The notes under the pieces: generated by a model | The model's input: only the letters and a program-made list of their open reading frames with translations | Told to the model about the DNA's origin: nothing | Databases searched by the model: none | Program-made: the position numbers and the translations under genes | From: a virus | IMG/VR virus record: IMGVR_UViG_3300045003_000017 | Coordinates: 1-25,993 of that record | Length of the DNA: 25,993 bases | Strand: one strand, 5' to 3' | Part shown: piece by piece, positions 5,227 to 22,315 of the stretch | Layout: each line of letters begins with the position of its first letter | Numbering within the stretch: position 1 is the first letter of the stretch

Positions 5227-5411
5227 GACTTTCTCCGAAGGATTTTGTCCCGGAATAGGACATACAACTGAGTGGCTGTATAGGCGATTGCCAGATACGT
5301 CGCGACTTCGGTGGCGGTGATATGACCAACCGTCACCAAGACCCAAGACACCGCGAGCTTGACCGTGGCGGTGATTGCGTTTTCATCTTGCATAGAGTCC
5401 CCCGTTCTCAT
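5223..5411 (-). CDS. Small two-segment holin
   Basis: A 62-residue protein with two hydrophobic helices: about 13-31 (AITATVKLAVSWVLVTVG) and about 35-52 (VATYLAIAYTATQLYVLF), followed by the basic tail RDKILRRKS. Two helices with a charged C-terminus fit a class II holin. The ATG at 5411 overlaps the ATP-grasp stop (ATGA); an alternative ATG at 5393 has a better site (GGGGGAC) and gives 56 residues, so the two starts could form a holin/antiholin pair. It heads the lysis cassette and would permeabilise the inner membrane for the lysozyme. Confidence 0.8.
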   Translation of the reverse strand: MRTGDSMQDENAITATVKLAVSWVLVTVGHITATEVATYLAIAYTATQLYVLFRDKILRRKS

Positions 5412-6733
5412 GCTTCACCATATTCAAATGCGGTCGCGATGCCATGTTTGTGAAGCTCGGGCAGCATCTTCTCGACCTTCTCGCCGATGTCGTCGCGATA
5501 GATCATGTTGGACACCGATATCTCGTCGACCGTGGCATAGGCCCGCTTGCGAGCCTGCGCGATGGTCTTACCCATGCCGGTGACGACCGCGAGGTAGTCG
5601 CCGGCAGTGGCCCACATAGGACGCTCGACGACCTTATCGCCCTCCATGTCTGGAAGCTTCTCCATCTTCACGGCCTGCGGCTGGATGTATTTTGAGTTCT
5701 TCTTCGTTACGCCATAGATCGGCACGCCGTCGGTTTCTGCCTTTGTTGCCGTCGAATACGGGAAGTCCGGTTGCGCAAGCACGACGCCGATCGCCATTTC
5801 CGTGCTCACCTGAAGCGTGTCCTTGCCGTCAATGGCATCTTTCATCCATTGGATGGGGTCGCCCTTGTGCTGGCTGAGCATAATGTTGAACGCCGGCCAT
5901 CCGGGGCGCATGGTGAATTCGAGCGGCCATGGCTTACCTTTCTCATCGACGATGCAGTTCACCGCGCAGTCGGAGAGGTGGCCGGTTTTCACAACGTCCG
6001 CCTCGATCGGCTTCATGACGATATCGGCGAGCTTGGACGAATCCACATACGCCGCGAGAGTGCCCATCTCTCCCGTATTGCAACCGATCTCACCCGACAT
6101 CAGCTTCTTGTGCTCGAAGTGCTCGGTAGGCCTGCCGATGTAACCGTTCTTCCCGACCCAGCACGACACGCCGATTTCGATGCCCTTGATGAAAGTTTGC
6201 AGCATCACGTCGCCCTTCGGGTTCATACCCAACTTCTGCCAGCGGCGAAGCTGGGCCACCATGTCGGCCGGCGACTTCGAGCAGTAGGAGAGCGACTTAT
6301 CCTCGTTGTCACCCAGCGTTTTGAAGACGTACCGCTCTTCGGTCTTCAGGACGTACTTCTCCGCCTCCGCCATCGTCTTGAATGTCTTGTACGGTGGGCA
6401 CTCGATGCCGTGCTTCTCGAGAAACTGCATGCCCTTCGCGCGCTGGATTTCAAGGGTTGCCGATTCGACCGTCGGCGCATAGATCGGCGCGCCTTTCTTG
6501 CGGAAGAAATCCAGGCGCGGGAGATAATCGTCGTTGCTGGTCGTGAAAACGAGATCCGCCCAACTGATCGATGGAACCCAGTTGTCGACTGTCTGTATGC
6601 CAAAGCCCCGACCCATCGTCTTGTTCATGTTAGGCTTCGGTTTCCGAAACCAGCGCACAGCGTGACCGGACTGCACCGCGCGCCAGCAGAGAGCCAGTCC
6701 CACGCCGTCGGTGTCGATCACGAGCAGTTTCAT
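5408..6733 (-). CDS. PurD-like ATP-grasp ligase
   Basis: A 441-residue protein resembling phosphoribosylamine-glycine ligase (PurD, about 430 aa) over its full length. It has an N-terminal Rossmann-like start (MKLLVIDTDGVGLALCW), an ATP-grasp core with Lys138 in VFKTLGDN, CNTGEMG (218-224) where PurD has PNTGGMG, EFTMRPG (272-278) where PurD has EINVRFG, and a PurD-type C-terminal domain with TAGDYLAVVTG (376-386) and YRDDIG (412-417). PurD's GGREHA N-terminal motif is lost and the Asn metal ligand is replaced by Thr274, so the substrate is probably not phosphoribosylamine. The start at 6733 has AAGGAAAATGAA upstream; an in-frame ATG at 6775 has no such site. It lies between ejection and lysis genes in the late operon. 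It likely forms an amide or peptide-like bond using ATP; substrate unknown. Confidence 0.8.
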   Translation of the reverse strand: MKLLVIDTDGVGLALCWRAVQSGHAVRWFRKPKPNMNKTMGRGFGIQTVDNWVPSISWADLVFTTSNDDYLPRLDFFRKKGAPIYAPTVESATLEIQRAKGMQFLEKHGIECPPYKTFKTMAEAEKYVLKTEERYVFKTLGDNEDKSLSYCSKSPADMVAQLRRWQKLGMNPKGDVMLQTFIKGIEIGVSCWVGKNGYIGRPTEHFEHKKLMSGEIGCNTGEMGTLAAYVDSSKLADIVMKPIEADVVKTGHLSDCAVNCIVDEKGKPWPLEFTMRPGWPAFNIMLSQHKGDPIQWMKDAIDGKDTLQVSTEMAIGVVLAQPDFPYSTATKAETDGVPIYGVTKKNSKYIQPQAVKMEKLPDMEGDKVVERPMWATAGDYLAVVTGMGKTIAQARKRAYATVDEISVSNMIYRDDIGEKVEKMLPELHKHGIATAFEYGEA

Positions 6734-6817
6734 TTCATTTTCCTTGTGAGGTTCTACGTGAATCTCTATGAACACATGCGATTAGCCGGAACGGTAATCG
6801 GCACCCCGCTGACGATT

Positions 6818-8506
6818 TCACTGTTCCGGTTCCTTGGACGCTGGTATCAGCGCCGGCGTGGTCAGTGGTATAGCGCGGCGTACGCCCTCGGCCAAGCGCT
6901 GGGTCGACGCCGAGCGCGGCGCCGTAATGGCTTTCGTGGCTAGGCCGCTGGCCATCGAATAGACCGCGCCGGGAACGATGCCTAGCGCCGCCTTGTGTGG
7001 TGCGCCGACCATTTCTCGAAAAGCCGTTCCCGAGTCGGGCAAGGTAGGCGACAGCCTATCGCCGGCCTTTTCCGCCAAGTCCTGCATCAGCGCCTTTCCT
7101 TGCGAGAACGCGCGCTTATTCTTCGACGTATCAAGTTGGCGCGAGGCGCTGCGCAATTGAGCGGGTGTGAAGGTTCCCTCCTTCGCACCCGTACGCGCTG
7201 CGGCGGCTTGCACGCGAAGCAGGTTCGCATAGCCCTTGTTGATCTTCTGGAGTTCCGGCGCGAGTTGCGGATTCGAACGATCAAGCATGCGGCGTAGCGA
7301 CGCCTGCAATTCTTTCGTGGCATCGCCGAGTCGGCGCACGTCTGGGTTATCCGACCGCCCGAAATCGCGTGTCATGCCGCCCAGATTTTCCTCGATCTCC
7401 TTGACCGTCTCGCCGAGCGCATTGCCTTGCGGCGTGAACTTGCCGACGATGTCCTGGTCGATGATCCGGTTCAATTGATCGGCCTGAGAGGGCGGCAGGC
7501 CGCTTGCCATGCTCTTGACCGTCTGCAATTCCTGGTTGAATTGAGGATCGATCTTCCCGCGCATTTTTGGCAGCAACGCATCATAGGCCCCGGAGAGTGC
7601 GTCGGACGCGTACTCGACCGCCTCATGGCCTGATTTGATGCCGGCAGGCAACTTGCCGCCGATCGGTTCGAGCGCACGATTGATGGCGACCGTATTGAAC
7701 GACTCGATGCCCTTGCGCTGTGCGTTCTTGATCGCATCGCCAAGGAAGGGAATACTCGTTGCGCCCTCCTCAAGCCGCTTGAAGGCGCCGCCCAGCGCCT
7801 GCCCGGGGGTGAGCTTCACGCCAATGCTTGTCAGGTACTGGACGGCGGGATCGATCTTCGGTGCTATCGTGCGCGAGATGGCTTGGCCGACGGCTGGTGC
7901 GGCCGCGCCGAGACCCGCACCCTCACCAATCTGCTTGAGCTTCTCTGTCGCGAAGTTTCCGCCACCCTGTACCGGCTGAAGTGCGCCTTGCGCGGCTCCT
8001 AGGCCGGCGCCGGCTACTGCTCGTCCCGCAAGCGTGGATGCCCCCGCGCCCGGCATGACAGCAGCAAGCGGCGCGGTCGCGGCGATATTGCCGGCCACCT
8101 CGCCCGCGCCGGTCACAACAGGATGCGCCTGCTGATAGGGAGAAACCTCGCCGGCGCCGCGCGCGATTCCCTGCTCGGCATCCTTCGTCAGCCACCGGCC
8201 GGCACGGCCCACCATGTTGTCGCCAGCCATCTGCAAGCCATGCCCGGCGAGTTGCTGCGCACCAAGCGCGACGTCTTGAACGCCACGGCCAACTCCTGCC
8301 GCGAACGACTTCAGCATTCCGGGTTGCTCTTGGGCTCTCAAACCCGTCTGCGCATCGAACTGAGAGCGCGCGGCGTCGATCTGATCCTTCGGCACTCGCG
8401 GCGCCACGACCTGATCGAAGTACTGCGCGCGCGCGGCTTCCTGCTGATCCGGCGCGAGCGCCTTGAACTCGGCGCTATCGGCGACTTCTGCCCAGGGCTT
8501 GGCCAT
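6818..8506 (-). CDS. Internal virion / DNA ejection protein (562 aa)
   Basis: The third large gene after the neck genes, in the slot of P22 gp16-type ejection proteins. The N-terminus (KPWAEVADSAEFKALAP, then AQYFDQVVAPRV) resembles the short start motif of many podoviral injection proteins. Residues about 60-200 are rich in Gly/Ala with several amphipathic hydrophobic stretches (APLAAVMPGAGASTLAGRAV), suited to membrane insertion. The C-terminal half is helical and charged. No lysozyme or transglycosylase motif is visible. The start at 8506 lies two bases after the previous stop. An 83-base gap separates it from the ATP-grasp gene. Role inferred mainly from order and composition. Confidence 0.7.
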   Translation of the reverse strand: MAKPWAEVADSAEFKALAPDQQEAARAQYFDQVVAPRVPKDQIDAARSQFDAQTGLRAQEQPGMLKSFAAGVGRGVQDVALGAQQLAGHGLQMAGDNMVGRAGRWLTKDAEQGIARGAGEVSPYQQAHPVVTGAGEVAGNIAATAPLAAVMPGAGASTLAGRAVAGAGLGAAQGALQPVQGGGNFATEKLKQIGEGAGLGAAAPAVGQAISRTIAPKIDPAVQYLTSIGVKLTPGQALGGAFKRLEEGATSIPFLGDAIKNAQRKGIESFNTVAINRALEPIGGKLPAGIKSGHEAVEYASDALSGAYDALLPKMRGKIDPQFNQELQTVKSMASGLPPSQADQLNRIIDQDIVGKFTPQGNALGETVKEIEENLGGMTRDFGRSDNPDVRRLGDATKELQASLRRMLDRSNPQLAPELQKINKGYANLLRVQAAAARTGAKEGTFTPAQLRSASRQLDTSKNKRAFSQGKALMQDLAEKAGDRLSPTLPDSGTAFREMVGAPHKAALGIVPGAVYSMASGLATKAITAPRSASTQRLAEGVRRAIPLTTPALIPASKEPEQ

Positions 8507-8508
8507 AA

Positions 8509-9927
8509 TCAGTTCCAGAGGTGGGAGAAGTCGCCGCTGGCCGCTGCCGGCTTAGCGGAACCTCCGCCCTCGATGCCCTTCGCCTCGCCGGAGAGGAACC
8601 GGGTATCGAAGTCGTCTTTGCCGGTCGAGGCCTTGTATTGCTGCTTCAGGCCGTTCAGTTGTCCGCGCATGAGGCGCTTGGCTGTCGCGATGGCGCCAGA
8701 TAGCTGCTCGGGACTGGACGCCTTGTCGAAGGCGCGCGCAGCTTCCTCGCGATCAGACACACCGCCACCCGAGCCCACGATCGCTTTAACCACTTCGTCG
8801 GCGACGATCTTCTTGGCGGCATCGAAGTTCGTCGGCGCTGGGTTGCCGGTTTCCGCAGCGATGCGCTGCGCAATCGAATTGAACGCGCGCATGTCGCCGT
8901 TCTTCAGTTGCTTGCCCATGCTGTCGAGTGCATCGAGGTGGTCCGTCGCGACGTTCAGCGAGCGCACGGTCTGCCCGAGCTTGCCGGAGGTAAAGGCTTT
9001 CTCTCCGGTCAACTGAGTCTGATACGTCTTCGCGTCGTAGTTCGGATTGATTTCCTGAACGCGTTGCATCATACGGGCGGTAATCGGGTTGCGAAGCGCG
9101 GCGCCAGTGGGCGCAGGAAGTTTGCCCGAGGCGATCAACTGGGCGTTCGCCTCGATAGTCTGCGGGTCGCCTTCGAGGCGTTCTCGCTCGATACCGAGGC
9201 GCTCCGCACCCTGCCTCTCCATCACGCGCTGATGAGCGCCTTCCTGGGCGAGGCGTGCGCTCTCGATGCCGAGGCGCCGATTTCCTTGCGCCTCTTCCAC
9301 GCCCTGGTGATGACGCTGAAGGTCGGCTACCTCGTTCTGGTGCTGCTGCGTGTAGTACTGCGCGCGCGCCTTCGCGTCGGTGACGGTGGCCATAGTGCGC
9401 GCCGGATCGAATTGGTCAGGAACCTGATCGATATTCTCGGCATTAAAAAGTGGGTTTCCCTCGGGGTCGCGCAACGATTTCAGATACGCTTTGATCGACG
9501 GGATAGCCTGAGACACGACCGCGCGCGCCTGCGCGTCGGGCATGCCTTTGTGGACTAGATCGGCATAGGTCATCATGAGCGAGGTGCCCACCTCCGATAC
9601 CTTGTTCATCGCCGCGATGCCGACATCCCACTTGGCCTTTTGCGTCTGAGCTTTGTTCTTCTCGATCGTCGATTCGGCTTCTCGCTGCTTCGTGAACTGC
9701 TGTTGCAGCGTGAGCGCCTCGGTCGGGTTGACCGATCCGACCTTCTGAATGAGCGCTTGCCGTCCCTCTGGCGTCGATGTGTCGGAGTTTCGGAATGCGT
9801 CGCGCAGCGCTTGCTGTCCCTGGTAGTTCTGAATACCCTGCGCCAGTTGCAGGGTTTCGGCGTAGCTTTGCAGGGGGTCCTTCGGTTTTTGGACCTGAAG
9901 CGGAATGGAAGCGTCGATCGTAGCCAT
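8509..9927 (-). CDS. Internal virion / DNA ejection protein with coiled coil (472 aa)
   Basis: A Gln/Ala/Glu-rich, mostly helical protein in the P22 gp20-like position. The N-terminal region (about 15-120) is helical, and residues about 190-255 are a strongly heptad-like coiled coil that contains two copies of a short RLGIE-x2-RL unit. A globular helical part follows (about 290-440) and a short Gly/Ser/Ala tail ends in DFSHLWN. No transmembrane helix or enzyme motif is evident. Located between the gp7-like and gp16-like genes, it is probably packaged in the capsid and ejected with the DNA. Confidence 0.7.
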   Translation of the reverse strand: MATIDASIPLQVQKPKDPLQSYAETLQLAQGIQNYQGQQALRDAFRNSDTSTPEGRQALIQKVGSVNPTEALTLQQQFTKQREAESTIEKNKAQTQKAKWDVGIAAMNKVSEVGTSLMMTYADLVHKGMPDAQARAVVSQAIPSIKAYLKSLRDPEGNPLFNAENIDQVPDQFDPARTMATVTDAKARAQYYTQQHQNEVADLQRHHQGVEEAQGNRRLGIESARLAQEGAHQRVMERQGAERLGIERERLEGDPQTIEANAQLIASGKLPAPTGAALRNPITARMMQRVQEINPNYDAKTYQTQLTGEKAFTSGKLGQTVRSLNVATDHLDALDSMGKQLKNGDMRAFNSIAQRIAAETGNPAPTNFDAAKKIVADEVVKAIVGSGGGVSDREEAARAFDKASSPEQLSGAIATAKRLMRGQLNGLKQQYKASTGKDDFDTRFLSGEAKGIEGGGSAKPAAASGDFSHLWN

Positions 9928-9939
9928 GATGGGATCCGG

Positions 9940-11172
9940 TTAGGGCATCACAAAGCCGTAGGAGTTGGTTCCGCTGGCCGTTGATGGCGTGCCGAACCCG
10001 GCGTTGCTCCCGAAAAGCTGGTTGAGCGTGTACATCTGCCCCAGCGAGCCGATGCCGCTTCCGATGGCGTTACTTGCGCCAACCTGACCGGCCGCCGTCG
10101 CGTTGCCGGCGCCGATGATGTTCGAGCCGATCTGGTTTCCAGTGCTGGTGAGCGTCGAGCCGATTCCTTGGCCGGTCGAAATTGCATTGCCAGAGGCCGT
10201 ACCCGCGCTACTTCCGCCGAGCCCAGCCAATTGCATGAGATTGCCGACGTCGGTGTTGTAGACCGACTGTGCGTCGCCGAGCTGCTGCTGATAGGTCGTG
10301 TCGGCCATGCCCTGGGCGTAGTTATTCAGATCCTTAAGCGTCGCCCCCGAGAGCTGCATGCCGCGCGCGGCCGCGCTGTTCTCGATGCCTTGCAGACCTT
10401 GATTGAGCGTGAACTGATAGCCCGGCGTCGCGCGCAGTGCCGCAGTGGGGTCGGCGCCGTTGAATCCCATCAGATCGGAGAGGCGCTGCTTCGCCTGCGC
10501 GCCAAACGAGCTGGGGTCGGTGATTTGCCCCGTCGATCCAGCAAACCCTCCGGTCGGGCCTCCGTACACGGTGCCGGGCTGGAATTGAGACGCCGCGAGT
10601 TGCTCGGGATTTCCTCCGGCATTTCGAATCGAATCGGTCAGTTCGCGCGTGAGCATAGACATTTGCGCGGGAGAGGCGTCAGCAACCGATATGTTCGCCG
10701 TTCCACCTTGAGCCTTGTTCGCTCGGGCCACTTCATCCCATGCCGCCTTGTATTGCGGATTGCTCGCGTAGAGCTGTAGATTGGGTCCGGTGATGCCGCC
10801 GGCCGTGCTCAGGAGGGCAGAAGGTTGCTGCTGCCCGCCGGCCGCGCCCGATACCCCACCACCTCCACCTTGTGAGGTAGCTGCGGAGGCATACTGACCA
10901 CTAGCCTGGATCGGCACGCCCAATAGGTTCCCAAGCTGGGTAAGCGCGGAGGACCCCGCATTAATCCACGGTTGCTGATTGGCCTGCGCCGCCTCGCCGG
11001 CTTGCTGCTGAGCGGCGATGGACTGTTCGGCGGCCTGCAATTGAGCCTGAGAGGCGTTCTGTGCGGCCTGGGATTGGGTATCAGCGGCCGATTGCGCGCC
11101 GCTGGCAGAAATCAGACTGCCCCCCACGCTCGCAACTACACTACCGCCTGCTATCGCAGCAGCTACACACAT
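9940..11172 (-). CDS. DNA ejection protein, P22 gp7-like (410 aa)
   Basis: The N-terminus is a hydrophobic Gly/Ala/Ser stretch (MCVAAAIAGGSVVASVGGSL) followed by a Gln/Ala helix (about 28-65) ending in NQQPWINAG. The central part has GYQFTLNQGLQGIENSAAAR and then RGMQLSGATLKDLNNYAQ, a segment I associate with podoviral DNA transfer proteins. The C-terminal 100 residues are low-complexity Gly/Ser/Ala/Asn. The start at 11172 has AGAGGTGAG upstream and overlaps the GNAT gene by 10 bases. Position after the gp10-like gene and composition match P22 gp7, which leaves the virion with the DNA and helps form the ejection channel. Confidence 0.78.
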   Translation of the reverse strand: MCVAAAIAGGSVVASVGGSLISASGAQSAADTQSQAAQNASQAQLQAAEQSIAAQQQAGEAAQANQQPWINAGSSALTQLGNLLGVPIQASGQYASAATSQGGGGGVSGAAGGQQQPSALLSTAGGITGPNLQLYASNPQYKAAWDEVARANKAQGGTANISVADASPAQMSMLTRELTDSIRNAGGNPEQLAASQFQPGTVYGGPTGGFAGSTGQITDPSSFGAQAKQRLSDLMGFNGADPTAALRATPGYQFTLNQGLQGIENSAAARGMQLSGATLKDLNNYAQGMADTTYQQQLGDAQSVYNTDVGNLMQLAGLGGSSAGTASGNAISTGQGIGSTLTSTGNQIGSNIIGAGNATAAGQVGASNAIGSGIGSLGQMYTLNQLFGSNAGFGTPSTASGTNSYGFVMP

Positions 11173-11666
11173 GTCTCACCTCTCGGCAGATCTTTGAGTT
11201 TGAGTTCCATGACGACGTCATCGGCGATATAACCCCGGCGCTGGAGAATCTTGTGCAGTTTGCCGGTCCTCGTGACGGGCCATCCAATGATGCTGACGCC
11301 GAGATCGCGCAGCGTGTCCTCGATTTTCGACATGAGGCGCGGCATGGAATTCCGATGATTGGGCTGCACATAGAACGTATCGACGTTGCCGCACAACTCG
11401 GTCTTCAGGTGCAGGCTTTTGTACAGGATCAGCAGCGCGTACCCGCGCAAGATGAGGTCGTCATCACGCAACGTCATTGCGATCAAAGACCGGTGGGCGG
11501 CCAAATAAAGAAATTGGTCGATGTCTGGATCAATCGCAAGGCCTCGCTGTCCGTGATAGGCGCAAGTGTCCTTTTTGATCTCCGAGCATTCGTCCCAGCT
11601 TTGCTGTCCAAGCGGAATGATCTCTTCCGCCAGTTCTCGCGTGAAAGTTTCAATGGCGATCTTCAT
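11163..11666 (-). CDS. GNAT-fold acetyltransferase-like protein
   Basis: A 167-residue protein whose C-terminal half has the GNAT layout: strand NVDTFYVQPNHR (94-105), then a helix, then strand GVSIIGWP and the closing LHKILQRRGY. The acetyl-CoA loop usually reads Q/R-x-x-G-x-G; here it is HRNSMP, without glycines, so CoA binding may be altered or lost. The start at 11666 is set by the ATGA overlap with the preceding gene; the frame stays open further upstream, but that part overlaps the previous gene. GNAT proteins occur in the structural operons of several phages, with proposed roles in modifying DNA or virion proteins. Substrate unknown here. Confidence 0.72.
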   Translation of the reverse strand: MKIAIETFTRELAEEIIPLGQQSWDECSEIKKDTCAYHGQRGLAIDPDIDQFLYLAAHRSLIAMTLRDDDLILRGYALLILYKSLHLKTELCGNVDTFYVQPNHRNSMPRLMSKIEDTLRDLGVSIIGWPVTRTGKLHKILQRRGYIADDVVMELKLKDLPRGETCV

Positions 11667-11917
11667 ACGGACGTCCCAGCTCCATTGACCCATACCGTCG
11701 GGTTCACGCTCTTCACCTCGATTCGATAGCCGAGTGTGGTATCGAAGTAGGAGCGACCAATCCAGAGGAAGGTAGTCGGCCGTTGCGCGGTCGTGCCGCT
11801 TTGCGTCATCGCGGTCAAGAGGTTGAAGACCGCTTCGAAAAACGAGGTCCATCCTTGCGAGAACGGCTTGTGACCCGGCCCGAGATTGTTGCCAGGGACG
11901 TTATTTATTAACGCCAT
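11663..11917 (-). CDS. Small tail-region protein following gp10 homologue (84 aa)
   Basis: It starts MALINNVPGNNLG and contains FFEAVFNLLTAMTQSG, TAQRPTTFLWIGRSYFDTTL and a final VWVNGAGTSV. This compact pattern (hydrophobic helix, then a beta-rich GRSYFDTTLG segment) is one I know from small proteins between neck and ejection genes of podoviruses; the beta part resembles short fibre or head-binding motifs. The start at 11917 has GAGGGG upstream and overlaps the gp10-like gene by 17 bases; the stop overlaps the GNAT start. Probably a minor virion component. Confidence 0.72.
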   Translation of the reverse strand: MALINNVPGNNLGPGHKPFSQGWTSFFEAVFNLLTAMTQSGTTAQRPTTFLWIGRSYFDTTLGYRIEVKSVNPTVWVNGAGTSV

Positions 11918-13340
11918 TTTGATACCCCTCTCGCATGATCGCGTAGCCGTTGGTCACGACGAATTTGACCGGGTCCGTCATCGAAAGACGCAGGACGATA
12001 TCGCGCGCCGATCCCATACGGCGCTTGGTGACGCGCGGCCCCTTGTATTGACCCACCGCGCCGAGCGAAATGAAGGCCTGATTGCCGTAAGTTCGCCCGC
12101 CGTCCTTGCTCACCTCGAACATGAGTTGAGGATTCGATCCTTGCCCCGATTGCAGCCCAACGCCGGTTTCCATGTCGAAGAAAATCTCATCGATGCCGAT
12201 CACGTTCATGTCGTCAACGATGTGGCGCGTCACGAGCTGGCGCAGGATCGTCATGCCGTTGTCGGTGTAGGCCGAGGCGTCGTACTTGTAGATGTTTCCG
12301 CTCGTCCCATCTATCACGTAATCGATCTGGTTGAAGTTCACCGACATGCGCGCCAGATGGATCGCACTGAGCGCCGTACCGGTCTGCACTTCCGACCAGA
12401 AGTTCGAAAGCGTGTCATAGAGGAAACTGCGCTTGGCCGTCGGAAAGTTGATCTGATACATCGGATGACCGTCAACCATGTAGGCGAGCGCCACCGCGTC
12501 CGACACGACCGAGAACCCGTTGATGATGTTCGTGATGTCGGGCGAGCCCACATCGACAGGCGCGAAACCCTGCCCCTGCATCACCTGCACTTGGCCTTGA
12601 GGATTGCGCGCTAGGAACATCATCGTATTGTTGATCTTCGCGCGCGAGAACCGCGCGGCCAGGCCGTACTCCTGCGCCACTGATCGAAGCGGCGCATAGG
12701 GGAAGTTGGCCGCGCCATTGTTCTGCCAGAACTCGATGGAATTCGTGCCCCACAGGATCAAGTAACCGTGATCGTCATCCACCGCAAGCAGGTTGCCCGG
12801 GCTCGCCGCCATACTCGCAAAGTCCGATGCGCTCCACGTCGTGCCATCGTAGCTGGCCGACTTGTAGAACTGGTTCGTCGTGGCCTTGTCGACGATGAAA
12901 AACCCGTTATCGAAACAGACTGTCGTCGCGCCGTTCGGGAACCCCGCCGAGGTGATCTTGCCGACCCACGTCGTCGTGGCCTGGTTATAGATGTAGCCGT
13001 TGGTCCCATCGACGATGATCAGCTGCGTACCGTTGTCCGCCATCGAAACGAGGCCGGCGCTCGTGTTGAGCGTGCCGATCTGCGTGCGCACAAAGTTCGA
13101 GTCGAACTGAAACAGCGTATTGCCCGACACGACGTACAGGTATGAGCCCATCACGTACATGCCGCGATTCACGTTCGAGAGAGACGAGTCAACGAGCGCC
13201 AGGCCCGGCGTGCCGAAGATCGCGATGTTCGTCTTATCGCCATCAACGCGCACCTCGTAATAGCAGTTCAGACGACGCTGGGCCGTGACCGTCAGGCTCT
13301 TTCCTGCGGTACCGGAGCCGAAGAGGGGGACCTTTTTCAT
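11901..13340 (-). CDS. Packaged-DNA stabilisation protein, P22 gp10-like
   Basis: A 479-residue protein with repeated beta-strand/turn elements, consistent with the beta-propeller-like neck protein of P22. The start (KKVPLFGSGTAGKSLTVTAQ, then RRLNCYYEV) and the segment LFGTNSIEFW-type motif (here ILWGTNSIEFWQNNG, about 193-207) fit the phage stabilisation family. The C-terminal part contains DGGRTYG and RRMGSARDIVLRLSMTDP, also characteristic. It follows the gp4-like gene with a four-base overlap, as in P22 order. It should close the portal vertex after packaging and connect to the tail hub. Confidence 0.88.
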   Translation of the reverse strand: MKKVPLFGSGTAGKSLTVTAQRRLNCYYEVRVDGDKTNIAIFGTPGLALVDSSLSNVNRGMYVMGSYLYVVSGNTLFQFDSNFVRTQIGTLNTSAGLVSMADNGTQLIIVDGTNGYIYNQATTTWVGKITSAGFPNGATTVCFDNGFFIVDKATTNQFYKSASYDGTTWSASDFASMAASPGNLLAVDDDHGYLILWGTNSIEFWQNNGAANFPYAPLRSVAQEYGLAARFSRAKINNTMMFLARNPQGQVQVMQGQGFAPVDVGSPDITNIINGFSVVSDAVALAYMVDGHPMYQINFPTAKRSFLYDTLSNFWSEVQTGTALSAIHLARMSVNFNQIDYVIDGTSGNIYKYDASAYTDNGMTILRQLVTRHIVDDMNVIGIDEIFFDMETGVGLQSGQGSNPQLMFEVSKDGGRTYGNQAFISLGAVGQYKGPRVTKRRMGSARDIVLRLSMTDPVKFVVTNGYAIMREGYQNGVNK

Positions 13341-14314
13341 CTGCTGCTATTGCTCCAGGCGATGTAGTCGTTGCCCGGCTCGAAATACATCGAGGTCGTT
13401 TCGGCGTAAAGCTCGCGCGCGGTCTTCAATGCGTCCAAGTAGTTGTCCTTCATGTCATTGGTGAAGGGCGCATTGAACATCGGCGAGATTTCCTTCGTCA
13501 GCCCCCAGCAAAGCGCGCGATACCACGTCTCCGGGTAATACGGCGTGTCGGTCGGATTCTGGAAGATTTGCATCGGCTCCATGTACGTCATATGGAGGTG
13601 CTGCGTGACGTCCGAAGATCCCGCCACATCGATGAAAAGCATCCCGTTCCCGAGCGACTGCTCGTAGTAGATCGCTTGAGGAAGCGAGACATAGGTCGGC
13701 GACGCTTTGGACGGCAGGAAATCGTAGTCCTGCAACGTCATCATGTTGACCGGCGTGTCGTTTCCATTGACGTCGCGCAGCACGCACGTCTCGATGAATT
13801 CGGGGCGCTGAGCCTTCGAGGTGAAATTGAACACCCAATTATTCGCAGAAGCCTGAGACGGGAGCGCGCCGCACGGCACGGAGTTACCTGAGATCGTTCC
13901 CGCCGTCGTCGAGAAGATATCGCCCGAATCGAGCTGGATGACGAGAAAGTCGCCGGAATTGAGGTTGGTCGTGTTGGGCACGGTAAGCGCCGTCGCGCCA
14001 GCCGATGCGGTGGCGGTCAGTTGTCGCTGATAGCTCCCGTTCGACCAGTTGTCGCCGGTGGGCCCGAGGTTGTATTGAAACTTCGTGCTCGACAGATACA
14101 GATCGCCATGCTTGCGCGTCCACATCTTCAATCCGGGTGCGAAGTCGGCCTTGCCCATCCATTGCTTGCACAGCATGTTCAGCTTACGGGCGCAATCCGT
14201 CGTCTCGGTCGCGCTCGGCGACTCATTGTCACCCAACTTGCCGAGATTGAGCATCGCCTCGCGGATGATGTCGTCTCGCGAGACGGTTAGGGTGTAGACG
14301 CCCGATGTGGTCAT
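13337..14314 (-). CDS. Tail accessory / head completion protein, P22 gp4-like
   Basis: A 325-residue protein. The first 60 residues are helical (SRDDIIREAMLNLGKLGDNE, then ARKLNMLCKQW), matching the adaptor domain of gp4-type proteins. The middle (about 90-170) is a beta-rich insertion with TASAGATALTVPNTTNLNSG. The C-terminal half (PMQIFQNPTDTPYYPETWYR, then ALCWGLTKEISP) returns to the adaptor fold. The ATG at 14314 overlaps the upstream stop (ATGA) and the end overlaps the gp10-like start. It probably binds the portal ring as the first neck layer. Confidence 0.82.
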   Translation of the reverse strand: MTTSGVYTLTVSRDDIIREAMLNLGKLGDNESPSATETTDCARKLNMLCKQWMGKADFAPGLKMWTRKHGDLYLSSTKFQYNLGPTGDNWSNGSYQRQLTATASAGATALTVPNTTNLNSGDFLVIQLDSGDIFSTTAGTISGNSVPCGALPSQASANNWVFNFTSKAQRPEFIETCVLRDVNGNDTPVNMMTLQDYDFLPSKASPTYVSLPQAIYYEQSLGNGMLFIDVAGSSDVTQHLHMTYMEPMQIFQNPTDTPYYPETWYRALCWGLTKEISPMFNAPFTNDMKDNYLDALKTARELYAETTSMYFEPGNDYIAWSNSSR

Positions 14315-15855
14315 GCTGCGCTCTTAAGTTTGGCGTCGATGACGTCTTTCGCCGCATACCAGACGTCATCAACCGTGATATCGGCCTGGCACTTGGCCGT
14401 GCCGGTTTCCTCGTCCTTATGGCAGTGCGTCCACCCGTAGTGAAGCTGATGACACGGGAAACACGGCGTATTGCGCGGCTCGAGCGACACGGTATTGACC
14501 CAATCGCGCGTGAGGTTCTCGACGCTGCTGTGCGACAGGAAGACGATTTTCGGAACCGACATGCAGGCAGCCGCATTAAGCACGCCGGTCTCGGGACCGA
14601 TCACGAGATCGCACTGATCGAGGAACGCGAGCGATTCTCGAATCGACCATTTGCCACAGGTCTTGTGCACACGCGGCTCGTTCTCCCAGCCCGCCTCCAG
14701 CATCGCGCACTCGGGGCCGCCAACGAGCACAACATGCGCGCTGGGATAGGAAAGCAGGACGCGCGCGATGAACTGGTCGAGCGAGGCATTCGTCTTGTGC
14801 ACCGCCGATCCGGCGAGAGACCACATAACGACGAAATCGCCCATCTTCAAGCGCTGCTTGCGCGCCCACTCTCTTTCTTCCGCGTTGGCGTAAAACCGAA
14901 CGCGAGGCTCATGCGGCACACCAGCGAGCTCGTGCTGAAACTGAAGATAGTTGTGGTTCAGCATCTTGTGCCGCAGGTTGTGCGGCCAACGATGCGCCGT
15001 GCGGCCCGGCATCGCGAGCCACGTCCCCTCGACCGATTCGGACAGATTCACGAAATGGTCGTACTTCTTGGCGAGATAATCCCAAAACTCGATCAGGTCG
15101 CCATTGGGAACCTGATCCTTATCCTGGAGGATGATCTCGTCGACGTTCGGGTCGTACTCGACGACATCCGACCCTGGGCGCGTGCTGTAGAGCGTCACGT
15201 GATACCCCTGCTTCTTCAGACCTGCGAAGACGGACGACGCCTGCATGAGGTCGCCGAACGCCCCGTAGCGGATCACCGCGGCGGTTTTTGCGGGGCGCTC
15301 GCGATTCCATGATTCAACGCACTTCTCGCCCCCGGTTCGACGAAACACGAGAAACATGGAGTACTCATCACCCTCGTTGCGATCCTGCTTCTCGACTAGA
15401 TCCCACCCTTTCGCGACCTCGCGCATCGCCGCGATGATGTCATCCGGCATGAAGTCGTGAACGTGCGTGGGATTGGCTCCGTGCTCGCCGATGTTTGGGT
15501 AGAACTGCTTGTGCGGGAGATAGAGGCAAAGGTGTCCGTGGGGCTTGACGACTCGCCACCACTCTCTGAGAGCGGCCTTGTAATCAACGATGTGTTCCAG
15601 CAGATGTGAGCTAAAGACAGCATCCATAGACTGAGATGCAAAAACATCAAGCCGCTCGCACGTCTCCACATAGACATCGGGTCGGATGTTCCAGCCGAAT
15701 TGCTCATGGTTTCCATTATCGACCCCGATGAAATGTGGGAACGCCTTGTACTTGCCACAGCCAAGATCAAGCACCCGGCCGCGCGTGTAGCGCACCAGTT
15801 CCCACCTGATCTTTCCGGCTTCGTTTCCGTTGCTGGTTTCCGCTGTCCACACCAT
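14311..15855 (-). CDS. Fused SAM methyltransferase and GT9 (heptosyltransferase-like) glycosyltransferase
   Basis: A 514-residue two-domain enzyme. Residues about 15-175 are a class I methyltransferase: VLDLGCG (28-34) binds SAM, FIGVDNG is the second strand, FSSHLLEH (81-88) the motif after strand 4, and LREWWRVVKPHGHLCLYLPH the following helix and strand. Residues about 190-510 resemble GT9 family ADP-heptose:LPS heptosyltransferases: RYGAFGDLMQA (196-206), LVGGPECAML (377-386) and PETGVLNAAACM (421-432), where GT9 enzymes usually have DTG. A Cys cluster (465, 468, 478, 489) is near the end. The start at 15855 has GGAGCAAAGCA upstream. It lies in the late operon next to neck genes. It may decorate LPS, a virion protein or another glycan; substrate unknown. 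Confidence 0.85.
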   Translation of the reverse strand: MVWTAETSNGNEAGKIRWELVRYTRGRVLDLGCGKYKAFPHFIGVDNGNHEQFGWNIRPDVYVETCERLDVFASQSMDAVFSSHLLEHIVDYKAALREWWRVVKPHGHLCLYLPHKQFYPNIGEHGANPTHVHDFMPDDIIAAMREVAKGWDLVEKQDRNEGDEYSMFLVFRRTGGEKCVESWNRERPAKTAAVIRYGAFGDLMQASSVFAGLKKQGYHVTLYSTRPGSDVVEYDPNVDEIILQDKDQVPNGDLIEFWDYLAKKYDHFVNLSESVEGTWLAMPGRTAHRWPHNLRHKMLNHNYLQFQHELAGVPHEPRVRFYANAEEREWARKQRLKMGDFVVMWSLAGSAVHKTNASLDQFIARVLLSYPSAHVVLVGGPECAMLEAGWENEPRVHKTCGKWSIRESLAFLDQCDLVIGPETGVLNAAACMSVPKIVFLSHSSVENLTRDWVNTVSLEPRNTPCFPCHQLHYGWTHCHKDEETGTAKCQADITVDDVWYAAKDVIDAKLKSAA

Positions 15856-15967
15856 TGCTTTGCTCCATCAGAGGGTGACCGTCATGGGTATAGAGAGTGC
15901 CGTTCTGTTCGTATCGGGCTCGGTCGTGACCGGTGATGATGCCGAACGGCTTGTTCTTATCGAGCAT
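15767..15967 (-). CDS. Possible small protein overlapping methyltransferase start (66 aa)
   Basis: An ATG at 15967 lies two bases after the stop of the preceding gene and fills the otherwise empty gap before the methyltransferase gene. The first 35 residues (KPFGIITGHDRARYEQNGTL and on to PLMEQ) look like a real folded small protein. The remaining 30 residues are read in the overlap (89 bases) with the methyltransferase and are Arg/Gln-rich. There is no strong Shine-Dalgarno, so expression would rely on translational coupling. Function unknown. Confidence 0.55.
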   Translation of the reverse strand: MLDKNKPFGIITGHDRARYEQNGTLYTHDGHPLMEQSNGVDSGNQQRKRSRKDQVGTGALHARPGA

Positions 15968-17461: not shown

Positions 17462-17869
17462 TTATGCCGTCACATTGGCGAGCGGCTGAACGAGAAGCTC
17501 GTACGAGACGGCCGCCTTGCCGGCGGCGTCTGCCCCCGTCACCACATCGAGAATGTCGCCCTGAGCGAGCGAAACACCGCCCGCCGCCGTCGACAGCGCG
17601 ACGTTGGTCGTCGTGCCTGCGGCGGCCGTGCCGAGCGTCGTCGTCGCAAGCGTCGTCGTCGCGGTGCCGCTGATCTGCAACACCGACAACAAGTGACCCG
17701 CCGCAGTGCCGGCCGTCGTCACCGTCACCTGCGCGCTCATCGCTTGCATTTTCGTGAAGGCGGCGAACTTGCCGTATTGCGTCGTCGCCGCGCCGCCAGC
17801 CTCGCCACCCGACACCGCCAATCGAGCGGTGTAAGCCGGGTGGTCATAGGCCATGTTCTTCGTTGCCAT
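17462..17869 (-). CDS. Probable head-associated (decoration-like) protein (135 aa)
   Basis: The ATG at 17869 has TTAAGGAGC upstream. The protein is Ala/Thr/Val/Gly-rich, about half of it short beta-strand-like segments (SAQVTVTTAGTAAGHLLSVL; TTTLATTTLGTAAAGTTTNV), without Cys or membrane helix. Its place two genes after the coat protein and its composition suit a trimeric capsid decoration or head-fibre protein. This is an inference; a tail component is also possible. Confidence 0.65.
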   Translation of the reverse strand: MATKNMAYDHPAYTARLAVSGGEAGGAATTQYGKFAAFTKMQAMSAQVTVTTAGTAAGHLLSVLQISGTATTTLATTTLGTAAAGTTTNVALSTAAGGVSLAQGDILDVVTGADAAGKAAVSYELLVQPLANVTA

Positions 17870-18069: not shown

Positions 18070-19041
18070 TTACGCCGCCGAATCCCACTTCACGATGCGC
18101 ACGTTTGCTGCCAGCGTGTGCACGATCCCGAAGCCGCCGAGGTAGTACCAGGCGACGCCCTTCGAGCGACCATAGTCGGTCGGAATCTTGCCGCGCATCT
18201 CCTCGGGCACCGCGATCGCCTCGGCCACGGTGTCGTTGCCGAAGAAGAAGATCCAATCTGATTTCCCGTTGGTCCACGTCGTCTGCGTGATGCCATCGGT
18301 GCCGGTACCCTTGGCGATGTTCGTTTGCTCGACGTAGCGCACGTTCTCGTAGCGGCCGATCTCGCCGTTCATGATCAACTTGAAGCCGGTCTCCGTGTAC
18401 TGATGGATCGTCTCCAGGTTGTTCTTGAAGTTGCGCAGCGTCGTCGGCCACGCGAGCGCGTAATAGTCGTCGCCGATGTAGGCCGGGATGTTGCGCTCCT
18501 TCATCGTGTCGACGATCGACTTCGCGTGCCCGTTGTTATAGGCAACGTTATTCGTGCCCGTCACCGTGCCGTTGGTGTAGAGCGTGATCGCTGCGGTATC
18601 GGTGCCGCCGACCGGGATGGCGCGCAAAAGCGTCTGATTGAATTGCGTCCAGGCGAGGCGGTCGAACGTTTTCACCGCGTCGTTCTTGAGCACCTTCTGG
18701 ATCAGTTCCATCACCGGGAACTTCGACAGGTTGTCGAGCTTGCCCGAATACGGAACCGAGTTGCCGGCTTCGGTGATCGTCAGCGTGCCCTGGACGATCG
18801 TGAAGTTGGTTTCCGGCATCGTGTTGGTTTCGGTCAACACTCCACCCGCGTTCGCGACGTCCGAGAACACGTCCCACGTGAAGATGTCGCCTTTTTTCTT
18901 GCCTTGCTGAGAGGCGTCGCGCACATCGCAGAACTGGCGGAACTTGACCATCGGCTGCACCGCCATGCGCAGCACGTTCGAAAGCTGGCGGCTATACATG
19001 AAGCCACCAAGCGAGTTGACTGCCCAGACCTGACCGGCCAT
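18070..19041 (-). CDS. Major capsid protein
   Basis: A 323-residue protein with start at 19041 (MAGQVWAVNSLGGFMYSRQL) after AAGGAGAAAGTC; a longer in-frame reading to 19293 lies inside the scaffold gene and is rejected. The N-arm SNVLRMAVQPMVKFRQFCDV, the GDIFTWDVFSDVANAGGVLTE segment and ETNFTIVQGTLTITEAGNSV fit HK97-fold coat proteins of the N4-gp56-like family as I know it. It follows the scaffold-like gene and the portal, as expected. It forms the icosahedral shell. Confidence 0.88.
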   Translation of the reverse strand: MAGQVWAVNSLGGFMYSRQLSNVLRMAVQPMVKFRQFCDVRDASQQGKKKGDIFTWDVFSDVANAGGVLTETNTMPETNFTIVQGTLTITEAGNSVPYSGKLDNLSKFPVMELIQKVLKNDAVKTFDRLAWTQFNQTLLRAIPVGGTDTAAITLYTNGTVTGTNNVAYNNGHAKSIVDTMKERNIPAYIGDDYYALAWPTTLRNFKNNLETIHQYTETGFKLIMNGEIGRYENVRYVEQTNIAKGTGTDGITQTTWTNGKSDWIFFFGNDTVAEAIAVPEEMRGKIPTDYGRSKGVAWYYLGGFGIVHTLAANVRIVKWDSAA

Positions 19042-19051
19042 GACTTTCTCC

Positions 19052-19975
19052 TTATCTGACCTGCCCCCGCTGCCGCGCCATGTTGGCGATGACATCGGAG
19101 ACTGACTCATCGGGTTCTTCCTGCGTCTGACTCGACACGCGGCTCGCAGCCGACGGTATCGCCGTGACAGACGCTTTTCTTTCCCGCTTGTCAGTTGCAG
19201 ACGGAGTACCTTTGAACGTCTTGACCCAGTCGCGCACCTCGTTGCCGATGGATTCGTATCGCTCCCAGTACGGGCGAGCGTCGCCTTGGGCAACCAGTTC
19301 GGCGTCCTTGTTCAGGACCACCTGACGCAGCATGGGGTCGTCGAAAACGTCCTTGAACTCGGTCTGAAACCGGCTCACGGCTTGCTGGAAGGACATCCGT
19401 TCGTCGATCAGCTTCGGCAGGTCTATGGTGGGACTGCGGAGCTGGCGAAGGGCTTGTACTGCTTCCTCTTCACTGCCCATTTGTATCGCGCGGACAAGCG
19501 CTAGGTCATCTTCGACCGGGGGTGTGGGGTCGGCTGGTTTTGCCGTACCCTGCGCGGACTGGAGGGCATCGAGTCGTATTCTCTTGGCCTGATCCAGATA
19601 ATCATGCGCCGACTCGACCATCTGAGCGCGCGCAATGACCTCTTCAAGCGGCAATTCTATTACTTTGCCGTTGACTTTCAAGGGAATCTTTTCCGCTTCA
19701 GAAGCAGCCGATGGATCGCCATCGTTCGTCGGATCGACTTGCTGAAATCGGGTATGCGCATCCTCCGGGATTTCCTCGAACTCGGCCGCGCGGGCTTCGT
19801 CGTTGGAGTCGGCGATCTGATCGTACATTGCAAGGCGCGCATTGTTGCGCTCGGCGATCGCTTCGGCGATCTGCTCATCGGTCTGGCGCTCACCATTACC
19901 ACCGGCGGTATCGCCGTCGTCAGCGTGCAGGATGAAAGCCAGGAACAGGCGGCGCAAGAGTCGGGAGAGTCTCAT
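19052..19975 (-). CDS. Scaffolding protein
   Basis: A 307-residue, strongly charged, helical protein between portal and coat. The body (about 25-260) is rich in Glu, Asp, Ala and Arg with several amphipathic helices, and the C-terminal 45 residues are basic and then Ser/Gln/Glu-rich, ending in a helical tail (DVIANMARQRGQVR) that could bind coat subunits. Size, composition and order match P22 gp8-like scaffolds. The N-terminus contains a short Leu/Arg stretch (MRLSRLLRRLFLAFIL) that is unusual for the class. The start overlaps the preceding gene (ATGA). Confidence 0.8.
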   Translation of the reverse strand: MRLSRLLRRLFLAFILHADDGDTAGGNGERQTDEQIAEAIAERNNARLAMYDQIADSNDEARAAEFEEIPEDAHTRFQQVDPTNDGDPSAASEAEKIPLKVNGKVIELPLEEVIARAQMVESAHDYLDQAKRIRLDALQSAQGTAKPADPTPPVEDDLALVRAIQMGSEEEAVQALRQLRSPTIDLPKLIDERMSFQQAVSRFQTEFKDVFDDPMLRQVVLNKDAELVAQGDARPYWERYESIGNEVRDWVKTFKGTPSATDKRERKASVTAIPSAASRVSSQTQEEPDESVSDVIANMARQRGQVR

Positions 19976-20244
19976 TCTTCACCTTCGAGGAGTCGGGTTG
20001 CTTGTTGACCGTCTGCGATCGCATCGGCCAGCCATATTTGGAATTGCTGCGCGCGCCAGATCTGGTTTTGTAGTTGCTGGATGCGACGTCGGCGCCACGG
20101 CGCAACCTTTGTGAGCTGATGCACGGCTTCCTGCTCTTCGGATTTCGCCTTCTCGAGCAGATAGGTGCCAATCTCCGAGCCGAGGAAGTTCTCGACGACC
20201 TTGCCGAATACGGCGGACTCGAAGAGCGCGTCGGTCTCAAACAT
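19972..20244 (-). CDS. Small helical protein between portal and scaffold (90 aa)
   Basis: The ATG at 20244 lies inside the last codons of the portal gene, and the stop overlaps the scaffold start, so it is tightly coupled on both sides. The product is a single helical domain with a basic middle (WRRRRIQQLQNQIWRAQQFQ) and acidic ends. A small coiled-coil protein here may assist portal or scaffold assembly. No specific family recognised. Confidence 0.7.
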   Translation of the reverse strand: MFETDALFESAVFGKVVENFLGSEIGTYLLEKAKSEEQEAVHQLTKVAPWRRRRIQQLQNQIWRAQQFQIWLADAIADGQQATRLLEGEE

Positions 20245-22315
20245 TCACGTTCCCCTGCGGGAGTGGTTGAGGAACGATCTGACCGGTGTGCGGAGAAACC
20301 TGACCCGGCTGCGCGGGTTGAGTCATCGGCTGCTGAATCGCCATGAAGTGATCGGCGAGCGTGCGCCGATTCTGGTGATGCTCCTTCATGCTCTCGACTA
20401 CTATCTTCGTTCGGTTGTTTTGCTCGGCGATCTTCAGCTTGTTCTCGCCCGAGCGCTCCGCCATCTTCATCATCTGCATCTTCATCATCTGAAGCTGCTG
20501 CATGAGCTGGACCTTTTCCGGGTCCTCGACGCTGAAGAAGCGCCGGCCGTCCTGGTAGCCAAGGTGACCGAATATCTCCTTGCCGACCTCGTTGGTGTTG
20601 AGACCCGGGATGCCCATCTTCACGATGTTCGCGTAGGCCTGTGTGCCCATGATGAGCTTTTGGACCTTCGTCATCGGATCGGTTGCGCCCATGCCGACGT
20701 TGACCTTGAGCGTCAACTCCTCGTTCAGCAACTCGTCGGTCATCTGGTTGATGCCGTACTTCTGGAAGAGCTGGGCGCGCTCGGCGGCGATCGACATCAC
20801 GACCTCGTCGGTCTCGTAGTGCTGCTCGAGCTTCACCAGTTGCCGCAGCACCGGCTCGAGGAATGTCCATACGTACGTGAGCAGGCCATATTCGGTGAGC
20901 GTGCTGGCGGCGCCCTTGAGCATCGCCATGCCGCCCACCGTTTCCTGAAGCTTGGCGTTTTGCTGGATCGTCGCCGGCGAAAAGTTGCCCACCAACTCAT
21001 CAAAATCGACGTTCAGGCGGTCCTGCTCCTGATAACTCGACGCCGTGACGTCCGCCCAGTTGATTTCCTTGACGTCCGTTTCCGGGTTGTCGACCAGCGT
21101 GACAGCGCCTGGCACATTACGCACGATCGACGCGAGATCCGCATTGGTGCCTCGCTTGACGAACCAGCGCTTATTCAGCACGAATTTCACGTTATCGAGC
21201 CGCTGGTTGGCGATCTCGTTCGCCTCTTGCTGCAATCCGTCGGCCAGTTCGGGAACCGACGACGGCATGACCTTGTGCGTCTCGATAATGAAGCTGCCGA
21301 GCACATATGGACGCATGCCGTGAAAGACGTGCTCGTTGAGCGGTCTTGGCTCGGACAGCAACGCCTGCGTGCCGAGCGTATAGAACTCCCAATCCTCGCC
21401 TTCGTACCGATGGATGTGGCGAAACACCCAGGCTATCTCGTAGTCGCTCACGGCCTTCTTGTCGGCCGATTGCGGGTCTTGCCGGCCCGGCTGGCGCGAC
21501 ATGCGCGTGGAGTCGACCTTGTTCTCCGATGCCTGGAGGATGATGTCGTCGCCGTACTCGCGCCATTCCGGTTTGCCGGTCTTCTTGTCCGGCGTGGCCA
21601 TCTTCGTCTTGATGTCGCCGACGAACATCGGAATGAGGTGGATGACGTACGGACTCGACCCAATCGGGTCCATCCAGTCGGCGGCCGGGTCGAATCGAAT
21701 GTTTTCGATCGGCACGAGGTCGGCAGCGGGCTTGTCGGCGATTACCTCGCCTCGTCCGTTCTCTTGATACTTCCAATGCACGTGCGCGCACACCGACCCC
21801 TGCGTCTGTGCGTCCTGAATGCCGCCCTGCACGAACTTAAACCAGTTGATACCGCCGTCCGTTGTGAGGCGATACTGAATCAGTTCCTTCATGACCGCAG
21901 CGGACGCCTGCTGTTGCGGGTTCGACTGATTCATCGGAGAGACCGAAAGCAGATCCATATTCGAAAAAAAAGCCGCGGCAGAGGCGGCTTCGTTCTTTCG
22001 GATAATGGTCCGAGTCTTCGGTCGGTAAATCCGAGATCTCTTATCGAAGAGCGGCGAGTTGTACTTCGAATCGAGCGAATGCTGGTTGTAGAACGCCCGG
22101 ATCGAGTCCTCCCAGCGCTTGCGGTAATTCGAGTCGACGTAGGTCGTCGAGAAGAAATACGCCTCGCGCGCCTTCTTCATCCACTGATGCTCATCGAGCC
22201 CTCGCGCACCGATGTCCTGATCTGAATCGACGCCGATCTCTCCAAGCGGAACGTCGCTTTGATTCTGCTCGGGAGCGTGAATGTGCGGCTGCTCGGGGCG
22301 TTGCAGGACCGTCAT
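20237..22315 (-). CDS. Portal protein
   Basis: A 692-residue protein. The N-terminal region WMKKAREAYFFSTTYVDSNY, then RKRWEDSIRAFYNQHSLDSK, is typical of large podoviral portals. The middle carries the clip/wing-like parts with RFDPAADWMDPIGSSPYVIH, and the stem region includes LADGLQQEANEIANQRLDNV. Residues about 590-660 are a Met/Gln/Lys-rich coiled coil (QLMQQLQMMKMQMMKMAER), matching the barrel helix of P22-like portals, followed by a Pro/Gln tail. Size and context (scaffold and coat follow) agree. It forms the dodecameric ring through which DNA is packaged and ejected. A terminator-like hairpin lies inside its gene at codons 109-118. Confidence 0.9.
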   Translation of the reverse strand: MTVLQRPEQPHIHAPEQNQSDVPLGEIGVDSDQDIGARGLDEHQWMKKAREAYFFSTTYVDSNYRKRWEDSIRAFYNQHSLDSKYNSPLFDKRSRIYRPKTRTIIRKNEAASAAAFFSNMDLLSVSPMNQSNPQQQASAAVMKELIQYRLTTDGGINWFKFVQGGIQDAQTQGSVCAHVHWKYQENGRGEVIADKPAADLVPIENIRFDPAADWMDPIGSSPYVIHLIPMFVGDIKTKMATPDKKTGKPEWREYGDDIILQASENKVDSTRMSRQPGRQDPQSADKKAVSDYEIAWVFRHIHRYEGEDWEFYTLGTQALLSEPRPLNEHVFHGMRPYVLGSFIIETHKVMPSSVPELADGLQQEANEIANQRLDNVKFVLNKRWFVKRGTNADLASIVRNVPGAVTLVDNPETDVKEINWADVTASSYQEQDRLNVDFDELVGNFSPATIQQNAKLQETVGGMAMLKGAASTLTEYGLLTYVWTFLEPVLRQLVKLEQHYETDEVVMSIAAERAQLFQKYGINQMTDELLNEELTLKVNVGMGATDPMTKVQKLIMGTQAYANIVKMGIPGLNTNEVGKEIFGHLGYQDGRRFFSVEDPEKVQLMQQLQMMKMQMMKMAERSGENKLKIAEQNNRTKIVVESMKEHHQNRRTLADHFMAIQQPMTQPAQPGQVSPHTGQIVPQPLPQGNVNV
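21964..21990 (-). terminator. Terminator-like hairpin and T8 tract inside portal gene
   Basis: On the minus strand AAGCCGC-CTCTGCC-GCGGCTT is a perfect seven-bp stem with a seven-base loop, and its 3' arm runs into a tract of eight T residues in total. In frame it encodes EAASAAAFFS (about residues 109-118). It has the form of an intrinsic terminator within a coding region; active translation would normally suppress it. It could also be a transcriptional slippage site. Confidence 0.55.

Follow-up and report, generated by a model that had tools for sequence, protein, structure and literature searches.

The late operon analysed here belongs to a short-tailed phage with an integrase, IMG/VR virus record IMGVR_UViG_3300045003_000017, of which positions 1 to 25,993 were studied (25,993 bases, hereafter the window). 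Among its virion genes, all on the minus strand, are three enzyme-like genes: a fusion of an S-adenosylmethionine (SAM) methyltransferase with a GT9-type glycosyltransferase (hereafter MTGT), a PurD-fold ATP-grasp ligase, and a small GNAT-fold protein. We established that MTGT and the ATP-grasp gene are vertically inherited core genes under purifying selection, and not morons, and that the GNAT gene is an accessory gene in an exchangeable slot. In the reading that we favour, with a probability of about 0.5, the operon combines two core enzymes, whose roles are separable, with an accessory protein, and MTGT would be an ADP-heptose-dependent transferase acting probably on a protein of the virion.

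The three frames had been reported in an initial annotation as enzymes embedded in the virion operon and coupled to virion genes, and both points were confirmed (Table 1). Following transcription, the order is portal, scaffold, capsid, small proteins, MTGT, adaptor, stopper, a small structural protein, GNAT, three ejection proteins, ATP-grasp and lysis genes, the second ejection protein, adaptor and scaffold being assigned by position and synteny. The placement of the enzymes between lysis and head genes had to be corrected: the ATP-grasp gene comes after the genes for ejection proteins, GNAT is located between these and the stopper gene, and MTGT directly precedes the adaptor. The coupling is visible as overlaps, of 4 nt between the MTGT stop and the adaptor start (14311-14314), of 4 nt between GNAT and the preceding gene (11663-11666) and of 10 nt between GNAT and the following ejection gene (11163-11172); an open reading frame (ORF) for a holin-like product of 62 aa begins at the ATP-grasp stop, overlapping it (5408-5411). 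Pairwise ratios of nonsynonymous to synonymous substitution rates (dN/dS) are 0.05-0.17 for the enzyme genes and homologues number in the hundreds, so that the three frames are not chance ORFs.

The virus collection, whose records are fragments, was scanned with the adaptor rather than the enzymes as anchor, to guard against bias. MTGT was found upstream of the adaptor, mostly directly adjacent, in 78 of the 79 adaptor-anchored contigs with room for it; in the sole exception (L135) it is located elsewhere. When MTGT served as anchor, the adaptor adjoined it in 60 of 61 newly found loci. Of the 23 contigs that extend 8 kb or more past the adaptor, 22 carry the ATP-grasp gene, the exception being G019. 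This gene is within reach in 14 of the 21 MTGT-anchored loci with 9 kb downstream, which is a lower bound because its distance to the adaptor varies up to about 9 kb. The evolutionary distances of each enzyme were congruent with those of the two connectors, adaptor and stopper (Mantel r 0.78-0.84, a level reached by none of 2000 permutations). Each enzyme is also better conserved than either connector, with dN/dS of 0.05-0.09. Near-universal presence, congruence, conservation and purifying selection together identify MTGT and ATP-grasp as core genes that are inherited vertically. It is therefore very unlikely that the enzymes are independent morons that fell by chance among virion genes, an alternative left open by the initial annotation; the co-occurrence data refute it for MTGT and ATP-grasp, and GNAT may still be one. 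The diversity of the three enzyme families and the accessory behaviour of GNAT would fit it, but the two other genes are fixed in place and track the connectors.

The co-occurrence of the three genes, suggested earlier as a check, was thus borne out for MTGT and ATP-grasp, which are nearly always found together and in the same order, and not for GNAT. Even these two are separable in function, since each occurs alone: MTGT without ATP-grasp in G019 and G039, ATP-grasp without MTGT in L040, L156 and MW202796. The last, a 44-kb circular phage record, keeps the order GNAT, ejection proteins, ATP-grasp. Prophages of this kind are present in cultured Paraburkholderia genomes, those of Paraburkholderia sp. 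C35 and P. rhynchosiae WSM 3937 (loci L154, L155) among them.

The AlphaFold model of MTGT (predicted local distance difference test, pLDDT, 92) has an N-terminal Rossmann methyltransferase and a C-terminal GT-B domain; among solved structures, Foldseek matched the latter best to the GT9 enzymes 3tov (E=3.2e-14), WaaF (1psw, 9.7e-13), WaaC and TibC. In Pfam, the N-terminal half matches Methyltransf_11 (E=1.1e-10) and the C-terminal half Glyco_transf_9 (E=0.0013), the latter with 18.5 bits for a gathering cut-off of 22, so MTGT is classed here as a GT9-fold enzyme and not as a certified member of the GT9 family. Its scores with the NCBIfam heptosyltransferase I and II models, 14-16 bits, are far below their cut-offs (at least 135). 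Residues D202, K354, E422, C465, C468, C478 and C489 are invariant in all 130 distinct full homologues, as are S350 and K354 taken as a C-lobe Ser/Thr-x3-Lys motif, D202 being part of an N-lobe GD motif. The SAM motif is intact in 127/130. In one locus (L203:4376-5884), an MTGT overlapping an HldE kinase gene has a destroyed SAM motif and intact glycosyltransferase residues; judging from this sequence, the glycosyltransferase half can persist without a working methyltransferase. No MTGT match was found in the phage collection, and plasmids gave partial matches to the methyltransferase only.

The four invariant cysteines recall the bacterial autotransporter heptosyltransferases TibC and AAH (BAHT). 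E. coli WaaC and WaaF are not known to have such a Cys4 finger. TibC attaches heptose, taken from ADP-D,D-heptose, to serine residues of an autotransporter, with D110, T226 and K230 as catalytic or donor residues, and holds Fe3+ by Cys339/342/358/370, cysteines which are needed for activity (PMC4358343). MTGT has in common with these enzymes the GT9-type GT-B fold, the catalytic Asp and the Ser/Thr-x3-Lys donor motif, and its four cysteines near the C-terminus resemble their iron finger. The cysteine spacing differs, however (C-x2-C-x9-C-x10-C in MTGT, C-x2-C-x15-C-x11-C in TibC), the N-terminus is a methyltransferase where TibC has a beta-barrel, and the neighbour is a phage adaptor gene instead of the autotransporter partner of BAHT. 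With WaaC and WaaF, MTGT shares fold and catalytic layout, and probably the ADP-heptose donor; it departs from them by its methyltransferase fusion, its place among phage late genes and its low heptosyltransferase-model scores.

A stronger clue than the cysteine motif comes from genome context, and ADP-heptose is the most likely donor for MTGT as judged from sequence. Among 50 records, the hldE kinase was found in 9, the hldE adenylyltransferase in 7 and gmhA in 9, and overall such genes are linked to MTGT in 11 of the 50. By our own count, heptose genes are present in 10 of the 28 records that extend 2.5 kb or more upstream of the terminase, against 28 of the 50,697 records of the reference phage collection for the hldE kinase, mostly T4-like cyanophages; the two collections differ in kind. 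In L262, gmhA (D-sedoheptulose-7-phosphate isomerase), the HldE kinase and the HldE adenylyltransferase form a compact run of three genes just before the terminase. The HldE kinase gene of G028 (348 bits, cut-off 345) starts inside the MTGT stop codon, and that of L359 lies 2.3 kb upstream of MTGT. Between the capsid and MTGT genes, L055, L059 and L057 have extra glycosyltransferases (GT2) and a TylF-type methyltransferase protein. The T4-like cyanophages S-CAM1, S-CAM3 and S-T4 likewise encode a phosphoheptose isomerase and an HldE-type kinase and nucleotidyltransferase, but they are large phages, and the phage collection has no MTGT match.

As a separate observation, HldE-like kinases were found in at least 570 virus contigs, with an adenylyltransferase nearby in 67 of the 80 that were fetched (IMG/VR, loci L265-L344). 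Phage heptose metabolism thus looks widespread beyond the phage family studied here, at least from gene content.

We propose that late in infection MTGT would transfer heptose from ADP-heptose to a protein of the assembling virion, and that its methyltransferase half would then probably methylate the added sugar. It would draw on the ADP-heptose pool of the Gram-negative host, which some relatives may boost with their own gmhA-hldE operon. We infer a virion protein as acceptor because of the late position of MTGT, its fixed coupling to a virion gene and its vertical inheritance; capsid, decoration and head-tail proteins would be the first candidates. We have moderate confidence in this heptosylation mechanism. 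A virion protein was one of several targets listed in the initial annotation, and it is now the favoured one for MTGT; the link to ADP-heptose was absent there.

Several observations weigh against this proposal. Most phage gmhA and hldE proteins score below the NCBI curated cut-offs, and several of the HldE-positive contigs are closely related, so that perhaps only about 4 gains are independent. The SAM motif of the G028 MTGT is broken, and methylation is therefore not universal. In Foldseek, WaaF and 3tov resemble the overall fold of MTGT more closely than TibC does, and the Cys4 finger, considered as a unique marker of BAHT, was rejected as such, for it occurs with other spacing in two Paraburkholderia GT9s of unknown acceptor. 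In a siphophage-like contig (L066), an MTGT homologue (43%) lies beside tape-measure-like and other tail-type genes, without this adaptor family, which suggests a spread of MTGT to long-tailed phages. Finally, a classical acceptor of GT9 enzymes is lipopolysaccharide (LPS). MTGT might act late on host LPS, placing a methylated heptose on the core and so preventing released virions from adsorbing to debris, or excluding other phages. WaaF and WaaC are among its nearest solved structures, ADP-heptose is the donor for the LPS inner core, and four lysogen or prophage host genomes have GT9 enzymes of their own. Surface-modification genes are, however, usually variable and often expressed from the prophage, whereas MTGT is a core gene that overlaps a virion gene and tracks the connectors, and no membrane partner was seen beside it. 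We regard LPS as a less probable acceptor than a virion protein, though a serious contender.

The second core enzyme has the whole PurD fold (model pLDDT 93; Foldseek 2yw2, E=6.5e-32), and its best solved matches are all glycinamide ribonucleotide (GAR) synthetases. Pfam GARS_A (E=1.4e-10) and GARS_C (4.6e-10) are recognized. One could thus suppose a working PurD feeding purine synthesis for DNA replication. This is very unlikely: the protein obtains 109.9 bits with the NCBIfam purD model, for a cut-off of 288, and its gene is late. We compared 22 phage rows and five cellular paralogues to five genuine PurD proteins. The ATP-grasp residues K138, K146, E186, K209, E272 and R276 are kept in 22/22 phage rows, but the PurD motifs GGREHA (phosphoribosylamine), EFN and GDPE are lost in all 22 as well as in 5/5 paralogues. 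The amine and glycine site motifs are thus replaced, by EFTxRxGWP in the phage rows (EWT in one), and the five paralogues, from Micrarchaeota, Elusimicrobia and Patescibacteria, have the same Thr and a G-Y/M-P motif; an EFT and G-W/Y-P type signature is common to the phage proteins and the PurD-like paralogues of Micrarchaeota and Elusimicrobia. Moreover, true PurD was found over cut-off in 11 of the 12 cellular genomes searched, which were phage lysogens or paralogue carriers (the Rhodanobacteraceae genome had weaker matches only). Because ATP residues are kept, substrate motifs lost and a true PurD co-resident, we conclude on sequence grounds that the phage protein is derived from PurD, is not PurD, and is predicted to use another substrate. 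It would probably still join a carboxylate to an amine with ATP, the amine not being phosphoribosylamine.

The cellular paralogues (L157-L193), about 29% identical to the phage protein, form a PurD-like family in these three groups, with a true PurD elsewhere in the genomes checked. No shared neighbour was seen by eye around their genes.

Since the ATP-grasp gene follows those for ejection proteins, a second modification late in infection may be suspected. Both enzymes might then make a built-in modification of the virion, MTGT adding (methyl-)heptose to capsid or head-tail proteins and ATP-grasp an amide modification, for instance an added amino acid, to an ejection, tail or glycan target, both being required for virion maturation. 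This fuller scheme is tentative, and we consider it rather unlikely as a whole.

The third gene behaves otherwise. Of the 72 informative loci, no more than 29 contain GNAT, and unrelated proteins can take its place. With the separate occurrence of MTGT and ATP-grasp, this speaks against the single three-gene pathway of the initial annotation as an obligatory one. Even in the close relatives L043 and L002, in which MTGT or ATP-grasp shares 83-92% identity with the window's, the slot is occupied by other proteins. The family matches of GNAT are weak (Pfam Acetyltransf_1, E=0.068; phrog_1249 acetyltransferase, E=1.6e-5), and the RxxGxG acetyl-CoA loop reads RNSMPR. A canonical R/Q-x-x-G-x-G/A loop is present in 5 of the 26 distinct slot members, 9 of the 26 being not scorable by pattern. 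From its sequence, the GNAT protein of the window is probably not an active acetyltransferase. It is positioned as T7 gene 13, between tail tube or stopper and ejection genes, and is of similar small size, but no sequence relationship to T7 gp13 was detected. A relationship to Mu Mom was not detected either (hhalign probability 0.2%; HMMER below threshold).

The initial annotation had also envisaged that all three genes hypermodify phage DNA or a nucleotide in one pathway, as ATP-grasp, GNAT, methyltransferase and glycosyltransferase proteins recur in proposed systems of this type. We found no support for DNA modification and consider this the least probable reading of all: GNAT is dispensable and lacks detectable similarity to Mom, the two other enzymes are found without each other, all three genes belong to the late structural module, and ADP-heptose is the product of the biosynthetic genes linked to them.

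Among the other occupants of the GNAT slot are, by eye, cupin-like proteins (APGMYIREVxxPxGTxxxxKHxH) in many lineages (L095, L028, L005, L110, L134, L152). At the C-terminus of a 298-aa slot protein (L040:2476-3369), a SET domain is weakly matched (E=4.8e-6), which hints at a protein lysine methyltransferase in a virion module.

Bacterial adhesins are the best-known heptosylated proteins, and mycobacteriophages the best-known phages with glycosylated virions. If our proposal is true, heptosylated virions would be a widespread phage trait, as the family has hundreds of homologues in public virus contigs, and this would raise questions on capsid stability, adsorption and immune sensing of heptose. 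Among late phage genes, it is unusual to find a near-universal one that derives from the fold of a purine enzyme, as the ATP-grasp gene does, and both core enzymes are carried by a large, little-studied family of short-tailed phages; the cultured Paraburkholderia prophages make them testable. In the open-licence literature, we found no prior description of such a system under ATP-grasp and glycosyltransferase in phages, phage heptosyltransferase virion glycosylation or phage ADP-heptose. Virions of the mycobacteriophages Che8, Corndog and Myrna are glycosylated (Freeman et al. 2023, as cited in PMC12363180). There also, a phage glycosyltransferase decorates virion proteins, but glycosyltransferases and hosts are others, and the parts of PMC12363180 used here mention no ADP-heptose pathway.

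A DNA similarity search of the late operon against the phage collection gave no match, hence no cultured close relative. The major capsid protein is about 54% identical to those of Vibrio phage and Xuquatrovirus. The cultured relatives recognized by their capsid (Xuquatrovirus PTXU04, Bas95, Vibrio 219E41) have no annotated MTGT or ATP-grasp, and a search of their whole records for MTGT was negative.

Table 1. Late genes of the window, in the order of transcription.
Feature	Position	Strand	Basis or size
Portal / head-tail connector	20237..22315	-	phrog_332 connector, E=3.9e-18
Major capsid protein (start approximate); candidate acceptor	18070..19158	-	phrog_1357 major head protein, E=1.3e-18
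Small conserved protein encoded downstream of the capsid gene; speculative candidate acceptor	17462..17869	-	synteny; Ser+Thr 22%; family search without match
MTGT, SAM methyltransferase (N-terminal) fused to GT9-type glycosyltransferase (C-terminal), 4 invariant Cys; core gene	14311..15855	-	514 aa
Head-tail adaptor-like protein (Ad1), partner gene of MTGT	13337..14314	-	between capsid module and stopper; phrog_12985 (unknown function), E=2.6e-17
Stopper / head closure Hc3	11901..13340	-	phrog_578 head closure Hc3, E=2.7e-88
Small virion structural protein, between stopper and GNAT slot	11663..11917	-	phrog_20787, E=3.4e-7
GNAT-fold protein, degenerate acetyl-CoA loop; exchangeable slot	11163..11666	-	167 aa
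DNA ejection protein	9940..11172	-	phrog_598 DNA ejection, E=1.2e-16
Presumed second ejection protein	8509..9927	-	position between two ejection genes and synteny; no family match
DNA ejection protein, directly upstream of ATP-grasp gene	6818..8506	-	phrog_26400 DNA ejection protein, E=6e-21
ATP-grasp ligase with PurD fold, distinct from PurD; core gene that immediately follows the ejection-protein genes	5408..6733	-	441 aa

Three further genes deserve mention. A 66-aa ORF (window 15767-15967, minus strand), which starts MLDKNKPFGIITGHDRARYEQNGTLYTHDG, overlaps the MTGT start in another frame, and with a loose pattern similar short proteins were found ahead of MTGT in at least 39 of 157 homologous loci. 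The tail-fibre protein (window 22949-24181) is encoded on the portal side here, but in many contigs its relatives come immediately after ATP-grasp. The Paraburkholderia rhynchosiae prophage encodes, close to its right end, a protein of 591 aa (L197:7081-8856) that matched no family; by eye it is a membrane protein, and its gene is possibly one for surface modification.

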